Source of the DNA: Chloroflexota bacterium
GTDB lineage: Bacteria > Chloroflexota > Anaerolineae > Anaerolineales > Villigracilaceae
Length of the DNA stretch: 64,000 nt
Assembly: GCA_026390015.1 (NCBI GenBank)
Contig: JAPLGS010000099.1
Span: 1-64,000, forward strand
Direction: 5' to 3'
In this document: positions 22,338-23,555 of the stretch, piece by piece
Layout of the letters: each line of letters begins with the position of its first letter
How positions within the stretch are numbered: position 1 is the first letter of the stretch
Program-made: the position numbers and the translations under genes
The notes under the pieces: generated by a model
Database searches by the model: none
The model's input: the letters and a program-made list of their open reading frames with translations, nothing else
What the model was told of the DNA's origin: nothing

Positions 22338-23555
22338 ATGAAATATCAAGAACTCCACATCCAAACCCAAAGAGAATTCCCAAACAACGCACGTACGCCC
22401 GGCTTTGGCTGGCTCGTCCGCGCGGGATATATGACTCGCGAAAATGAGATCCTGCCACTTGGTCAACAGGTGATTTCACGATTAAAAAAATTAGCATGCG
22501 ACCCTTCTTTCTCCTCACCTCCCTTTGAGAGTCTCAAGGCAACGTTATCTCTCCCGATTATTTCAACCGAAACCGAAACCTTCCTACCACTTTCAACTGG
22601 TTCCATCGAAGTTATCCATTGTCCTTCATGTAATTACACTCAACGCAAAGAGCTGTCTCAATTCAAGAAACCAGCCTCGCCACAGGAGTCAAAACTTCCA
22701 ATTGAAAAAGTATTGACCCCTGATTGTCACACGATCGAAGCACTCGCCAATTTCTTAAACATCCCTAAAGAGAAAACGGCCAAAGCCTTGATGTACACAC
22801 GCACCCAAGACAATCAATTTATATTTGTTGTCGTGCGCGGAGACATGACCCTCAGCGAGGCAAAACTTAAGAACACAATTGGCGAATTCCGTCTGGCAAC
22901 ATATGAAGAGATCATAGCTGCAGGCGCATCCGCAGGATATGCATCGCCTGTGGGATTAAAAAATGCGATCATCGTTGTAGATGATCTGATTCCACAATCG
23001 CCAAATCTGGCAGCAGGAGCGAATGAAGCGGGATATCACCTGCTCAACACAAATTTTGATCGTGATTATTCCGCCGAAATTATTGCGGACCTGGTTGAAG
23101 CAAAAACAGGCGATCGATGTTTTCAATGCGACAACACCTTGTCGATCCTGCCTGCCATTAGCCTGACAACACGATCTGAAGTTTATATCGAAAACATCCT
23201 ATTTGCCCTCGCTGAAACGCATCACGATGACAAAGGGCTTACCCTCCCCAAATCCGCAGCACCTTTTGATGTGTATCTCATGCACATCGCTGGCAAAGAA
23301 TTGGATACGCGTGCAAAAGCCGAAGAAATATATAACACACTGCAGTCTGCTGATATATCTGTAATATTCGATGAGCGTGATGAACGCGCTGGCGTCAAAT
23401 TCAACGACGCGGATCTGATCGGCTGCCCCATAAGAATTACAGTTGGAGAAAAGAATCTCAAAGATGGAATGATAGAATTAAAACCCCGCAAGGCAGATAA
23501 AAATCTGCTGATTTCCCACACCGATATCATTTCAAAGATCAGTGAAATCTCCTAA
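22338..23555 (+). CDS. Prolyl-tRNA synthetase-like protein lacking the aminoacylation core; YbaK/INS editing domain plus anticodon-binding domain
   Basis: N-terminal TQREFPNNARTPGFGWLVRAGYM...LPLGQQV; jumps to EVIHCPSCNYTQRKE; INS features TAKALMY (K), GYASP (GXXXP), GANEAGYHLLNTNFDRD (H); ABD VIFDERDERAGVKFNDADLIGCPIRITVG; class II motifs 2 and 3 not found. Confidence 0.85.
   Translation: MKYQELHIQTQREFPNNARTPGFGWLVRAGYMTRENEILPLGQQVISRLKKLACDPSFSSPPFESLKATLSLPIISTETETFLPLSTGSIEVIHCPSCNYTQRKELSQFKKPASPQESKLPIEKVLTPDCHTIEALANFLNIPKEKTAKALMYTRTQDNQFIFVVVRGDMTLSEAKLKNTIGEFRLATYEEIIAAGASAGYASPVGLKNAIIVVDDLIPQSPNLAAGANEAGYHLLNTNFDRDYSAEIIADLVEAKTGDRCFQCDNTLSILPAISLTTRSEVYIENILFALAETHHDDKGLTLPKSAAPFDVYLMHIAGKELDTRAKAEEIYNTLQSADISVIFDERDERAGVKFNDADLIGCPIRITVGEKNLKDGMIELKPRKADKNLLISHTDIISKISEIS

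Follow-up and report, generated by a model that had tools for sequence, protein, structure and literature searches.

What does a prolyl-tRNA synthetase (ProRS) become once its catalytic core is gone? This question is raised by an open reading frame at positions 22338 to 23555 (+ strand, as are all features below unless stated otherwise) of a 64,000-nucleotide stretch of DNA from a Chloroflexota bacterium of the Villigracilaceae (GCA_026390015.1, contig JAPLGS010000099.1, positions 1 to 64,000 of the forward strand), which we refer to as the window. Based on the reading frame, Pfam and NCBIfam searches, and alignment to solved bacterial ProRS, its 405-amino-acid product, ProRS-ed, appears to be an editing-only derivative of bacterial-type (family II) ProRS. 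We consider it very likely that ProRS-ed is a trans-editing factor that clears misacylated tRNA-Pro beside a family I ProRS that lacks editing.

An editing site and an anticodon-binding domain without the catalytic core

Pfam searches detected an INS/YbaK-type aminoacyl-tRNA editing domain (PF04073, tRNA_edit) at residues 127 to 241 (22716 to 23060; 78.6 bits against a cut-off of 25.5) and an anticodon-binding domain (ABD; PF03129, HGTP_anticodon) at residues 312 to 403 (23271 to 23546; 64.3 bits against a cut-off of 21), with no match to the class II core (PF00587) anywhere in the 405 residues. The NCBIfam ProRS models matched the protein in pieces and below their cut-offs (TIGR00409, 167.4 versus 306.7 bits; NF006625, 241.6 versus 558 bits). 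Relative to solved bacterial ProRS, residues 1 to 54 of ProRS-ed correspond to the start of the enzyme, residues 77 to 252 to about residues 205 to 383, and residues 284 to 400 to the motif 3/ABD end. Since these aligned segments skip the stretch between the first two, ProRS-ed lacks motif 2, the THEE segment, and the last part of motif 1. An N-terminal remnant of the catalytic domain (residues 1 to 52, 22338 to 22493) aligns to residues 1 to 58 of Enterococcus faecalis ProRS (2j3l) and is followed by a variable junction (residues 53 to 76, 22494 to 22565), where the gap against intact relatives falls. A motif 3 remnant (residues 280 to 300, 23175 to 23237) carries SEVYIENIL where intact relatives have GSYGIGxGRLL, and GIGxxR is gone.

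A preliminary description of this DNA had reported a frame of about 405 amino acids that keeps the N-terminal start of the ProRS fold and lacks the core and motif 2, and Pfam and the alignment to solved bacterial ProRS agree on this point; its reading that motif 3 is without a GIGVTR-like Arg likewise holds. The structure modeling that it proposed gave a confident fold (AlphaFold2; pLDDT 91, pTM 0.83) whose best PDB matches were bacterial ProRS, E. faecalis 2j3l being the first. ProRS-ed shares the INS and ABD with bacterial-type ProRS but neither carries a class II core bearing motifs 2 and 3 nor scores above the curated cut-offs, and it has the INS superfamily (PF04073) fold with the catalytic Lys, GxxxP, and His.

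The editing site was described earlier as intact, and alignment with bacterial ProRS bears this out. Lys149 (22782 to 22784), which we take to be the equivalent of Escherichia coli K279, aligns with the Lys of TIKTL/IIKSV in bacterial ProRS, and a K279A mutation makes E. coli ProRS editing defective (PMC3973320). The GxxxP loop is present as G200YASP204 (22935 to 22949), as is the editing-site histidine of GANxxxxH, His234 (23037 to 23039). Two CxxC motifs are also found, at Cys95/Cys98 (22620 to 22631; present in intact relatives too) and Cys261/Cys264 (23118 to 23129). In an alignment of 60 sequences that takes in segments of full-length ProRS, Lys149, Gly200, His234, and all four cysteines are invariant, Pro204 being the sole exception among the key residues. 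Cys95 and Cys98 are probably half of a putative zinc site, and we propose a Cys4 site with Cys261 and Cys264.

The short form is not peculiar to this assembly. When its spread and selection were surveyed, as had been suggested, it was found in each of the 36 genomes sampled from the window's genus (with a broken frame in one, G004) and in most genomes of the window's family. One copy 98% identical to the window protein (L003) is likewise short, a Villigracilis homologue is about 71% identical, and all 120 of the best metagenomic homologues are short (381 to 438 amino acids). The median ratio of nonsynonymous to synonymous substitution rates (dN/dS; pairwise Nei-Gojobori) was 0.16 over 73 pairs. 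Regional values, which express the dN of a region relative to gene-wide dS, were lowest in the N-terminal remnant (0.10), followed by the CxxC/INS part (0.11) and residues 284 to 405, including the ABD (0.18), and the deletion junction (residues 53 to 90) was the fastest-evolving region (0.39). ProRS-ed is therefore under purifying selection, which is strongest in the N terminus and INS, and the ABD is as well preserved as previously stated. Frame-broken copies were seen in two relatives (G004:C20, L124; G017:C2, L125 and L086), reflecting either sequencing error or decay.

A second ProRS and the decay of family II ProRS

Does the genome have another means of charging tRNA-Pro? A search for a second, full ProRS, proposed in the preliminary description, found a 479-amino-acid family I (archaeal/eukaryotic-type) ProRS on contig C82 of the window's genome. 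Pfam identified PF00587, PF03129, and PF09180 (the core, the ABD, and the ProRS C-terminal domain) in this enzyme and no PF04073 editing domain. Since this family I ProRS is complete, proline charging is covered; the enzyme presumably charges tRNA-Pro in this genome, and the notion that ProRS-ed is the sole ProRS is ruled out. Family I ProRS is also found in the other genomes of the genus within the order sample (301 genomes, at least 85% complete). G266 was considered as a genus member without it and rejected, because its gene is truncated at a contig end. The tRNA-Pro genes have GGG, TGG, and CGG anticodons, all with G35 and G36, and inspection of the sequences by eye gave an acceptor end of C1:G72 and A73.

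Across the order sample, family I ProRS scored above the cut-off in 241 of 301 genomes and family II in 120 of 301. We aligned 118 family II proteins and classed them by THEE, motif 2, and motif 3. All three signatures are kept in 33 intact proteins, and THEE is lost by substitution in 4 point-decayed proteins (G093, G257, G149, and G164), 2 of which also have an altered motif 3. Another 29 are degraded, with all three signatures lost and, in many, partial deletions. The remaining 52 are core deleted, missing the whole core as in the window; this fully core-deleted form was found in the window's family only. Despite the loss of the catalytic signatures in the 85 decayed copies (THEE, 0/85; motif 3 GIGxxR, 2/85), the editing residues persist (Lys, 85/85; His, 85/85; GxxSP, 83/85). 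Family I ProRS is present in the source genomes of all 85 decayed copies versus 19 of the 33 intact ones (P = 1.6e-9, Fisher test uncorrected for relatedness), the other 14 intact copies coming from genomes where family I ProRS was not found.

Several two-ProRS arrangements were observed in the order. Genes for family I and full-length family II ProRS lie adjacent on the same strand in G093, G293, G274, and G168 (L189 to L192) and, judging by coordinates, in G180 and G291, and look like a two-ProRS cassette. The family II proteins of G093 and G257 have already lost the THEE motif.

A bactofilin gene (21716 to 22285; PF04519) lies upstream of ProRS-ed and marks the proS locus; it has no part in the proposed mechanism. 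The gene order MPG, FabI, bactofilin, ProRS-ed, PH-domain protein, and DUF92 is kept in nearly all relatives with contigs long enough to cover it. Every stage of decay occurs beside bactofilin: intact (G209, G051, and G238), point decayed (G149), degraded (G297), and, in most cases, core deleted. This shared locus indicates that the window gene descended in place from proS and did not arise as a new fusion. Farther along the window, positions 25463 to 27157 on the − strand encode a 564-amino-acid protein with a C-terminal uridine kinase-type domain (PF00485); its N-terminal part received no Pfam name and resembles TGS/ThrRS by eye only.

How many times did this conversion occur? In a tree built on the INS and ABD columns that the proteins share, a single clade (SH-aLRT, 97) held 57 degraded and core-deleted proteins. 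Degraded forms from genus g88 sat among intact relatives (support, 93), and the point-decayed proteins fell in three places among intact relatives. In a second tree, built on a longer alignment, the point-decayed label must have changed three or more times when only the starred branches are counted. Approximately unbiased (AU) tests nevertheless did not reject trees that placed every strongly decayed form in one clade (P = 0.18 and 0.44) or that joined G093 and G257 to the main clade (P = 0.31). One large conversion followed by several later beginnings is thus favored but unproved. We give an even chance to the broader proposition that a displaced ProRS became a proofreader in place after an editing-less second ProRS had arrived, that this was begun or completed more than once within one order, and that the full-length, point-mutated, degraded, and core-deleted stages coexist.

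The genus g88 copies (G155, G236, G194, and G279; L169 to L172) are full-length family II proteins in which the three signatures are degraded and INS is intact. Trees place them with intact copies from their own genus, and they may represent an independent conversion.

A proposed proofreading role and its alternatives

In the scheme that we favor, the bacterial-type ProRS would have been displaced in this lineage by a family I ProRS that took over charging and has no editing domain. Judging from the loss of motif 2, motif 3, and THEE, the old enzyme would make no prolyl-adenylate. Its ABD would capture released tRNA-Pro through anticodon positions G35 and G36, and INS would hydrolyze the wrong amino acid, most likely Ala, from the 3′ end of the tRNA. 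ProRS-ed would then serve as a separate proofreading arm for a synthetase unable to proofread itself. The retention of editing residues alongside the loss of catalytic signatures, the purifying selection, and the ProRS-like predicted fold all support the trans-editing function suggested in the preliminary description.

Given what INS is known to hydrolyze in bacterial ProRS, Ala-tRNA-Pro is probably the main substrate of ProRS-ed, and we infer that the protein chooses its tRNA with its own ABD. In E. coli ProRS, INS cannot by itself tell tRNAs apart and relies for this on the ABD and G35/G36, and changes to the acceptor stem have little effect (PMC3973320). Since editing in this enzyme uses G35/G36 via the ABD, loss of the core need not abolish tRNA choice.

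Several observations weigh against this proposal. The window's genome encodes a ProXp-ala homologue (contig C123; PDB 5vxb, E = 1.2e-22) and four further free-standing PF04073 proteins (G000 contigs C40, C21, C65, and C48), which score below the YbaK cut-off, so clearance of Ala-tRNA-Pro may be redundant there. This redundancy argument is tempered by the finding that the same search detected a ProXp-ala homologue in just 10 of the 36 genus genomes. In five members of the window's family (G174, G221, G227, G245, and G276), family I ProRS is present but ProRS-ed was not detected, indicating that ProRS-ed can be lost. ProXp-ala also showed no clear complementarity to ProRS-ed: by hand tally, it occurred in ~31% of family-I-only genomes versus 25% of core-deleted genomes (P = 0.46), and we dropped complementarity as backing for Ala specificity. 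Finally, with the core lost, ABD and INS may be placed differently relative to each other in ProRS-ed than in ProRS. Genomes of genus g63 have family I ProRS, but most are without family II ProRS or ProRS-ed and without a detected ProXp-ala homologue; these genomes may edit Ala-tRNA-Pro by some other factor or not at all.

Could ProRS-ed instead be an editing subunit that docks on family I ProRS, the pair proofreading jointly as duplicated threonyl-tRNA synthetase (ThrRS) subunits can? T1/T2 ThrRS heterodimers edit in trans (PMC4787780), the adjacent same-strand genes of G093 and the other genomes named above would fit such a pair, and the N-terminal remnant, the most conserved part of the protein, could serve as the interface. 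We nonetheless think docking unlikely, because the window's genome has the two genes on separate contigs, none of the tandem family II copies is core deleted (they are intact or point decayed), and the dimer-forming class II core is gone from ProRS-ed. Somewhat less probable still is a tRNA-Pro-binding protein with a non-editing role, such as regulation or tRNA holding. The conserved ABD would suit it, aminoacyl-tRNA synthetase-like proteins with functions besides charging are common (PMC9437257), and ProXp-ala can cover editing in some genomes. Such a role would not, however, account for INS being among the slowest-evolving regions or for the Lys and His retained in every decayed copy despite differing modes of core decay.

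The final two explanations are highly improbable. If the gene were a proS pseudogene in decay, or had lost its core in assembly, the missing core and the frame breaks in G004 and G017 would be explained, but we ruled this out given the genus-wide and metagenomic short form, the low dN/dS, the open full-length frame, and the conserved neighbors. That ProRS-ed is still a synthetase, its remaining fold carrying out a reduced charging reaction, has equally little chance: its descent from ProRS and its matches to the ProRS models, far under their cut-offs as these are, stand against the absence of motif 2, the motif 3 Arg, and THEE and the presence of a full family I ProRS in the genome.

Comparison with known editing systems

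The closest analogue of ProRS-ed is archaeal ThrRS-ed, a Ser-tRNA(Thr) hydrolase that is free-standing, has an anticodon-binding domain, and serves a synthetase without its own editing domain (PMC11295145, PMC7373986); a 2024 review depicts it with two domains, one for editing and one for anticodon binding (PMC11295145). ProRS-ed similarly has an ABD and no synthetase core, and its partner, family I ProRS, has no editing domain. In contrast to ThrRS-ed, which has a DTD-like fold and occurs in Archaea, ProRS-ed has INS as its editing domain, concerns another amino acid and tRNA, and comes from Chloroflexota. The NCBIfam Ser-tRNA(Thr) hydrolase model matches ProRS-ed weakly over the ABD region (E = 0.0033). 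By analogy, ProRS-ed would work like ThrRS-ed but, with its INS domain, is not a member of that family. This precedent for its layout, the replacement enzyme, and the series of decay stages go beyond the preliminary description.

Bacterial-type ProRS with INS is the direct ancestor, with the same domain order, partly the same locus, and intact INS and ABD; unlike this enzyme, ProRS-ed is without motif 2, motif 3, and THEE. ProXp-ala belongs to the same superfamily and edits in trans, and its substrate, Ala-tRNA-Pro, is probably that of ProRS-ed too, yet it has one domain only and recognizes the acceptor stem (PMC3973320, PMC10164551); its homologue in the window's genome is encoded by a separate gene. 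YbaK, a Cys-tRNA(Pro) deacylase, shares the INS fold and catalytic Lys but consists of one domain, does not itself discriminate among tRNAs, and relies on ProRS (PMC3973320); ProRS-ed matched TIGR00011, used for this comparison, only marginally (E = 0.016). The 2024 review counts eight trans-acting INS families, whose members, apart from the ProRS INS domain, are single domain (PMC11295145). By that rule, the ABD (PF03129) sets ProRS-ed apart from YbaK and ProXp proteins, as first proposed. The apo-T1 ThrRS of Anabaena is a duplicated class II synthetase that acts solely in trans editing beside a second synthetase (PMC4787780). Its switch is the loss of zinc, and the catalytic domain is retained, whereas the loss in ProRS-ed is in the gene and permanent. 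We found no earlier description of an INS-plus-ABD protein or of ProRS editing in Chloroflexi in the literature searched, which excluded subscription papers.

Many of these genes are automatically labeled "prolyl-tRNA synthetase" or "hypothetical protein," which misleads genome annotation. Because ProRS-ed occurs naturally and has no synthetic site that could interfere with an editing assay, it allows a direct test of how anticodon binding ~70 Å away controls the editing site, a question raised previously (PMC3973320). If our interpretation is correct, this INS editor, with its own ABD and its origin in an entire synthetase, would extend the solution represented by ThrRS-ed to a second aminoacyl-tRNA synthetase family. 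The series of stages, the most surprising part, would show the evolutionary path step by step. More generally, the editing function of a synthetase could be what selection keeps once charging becomes dispensable, providing a general route to trans-editing factors.
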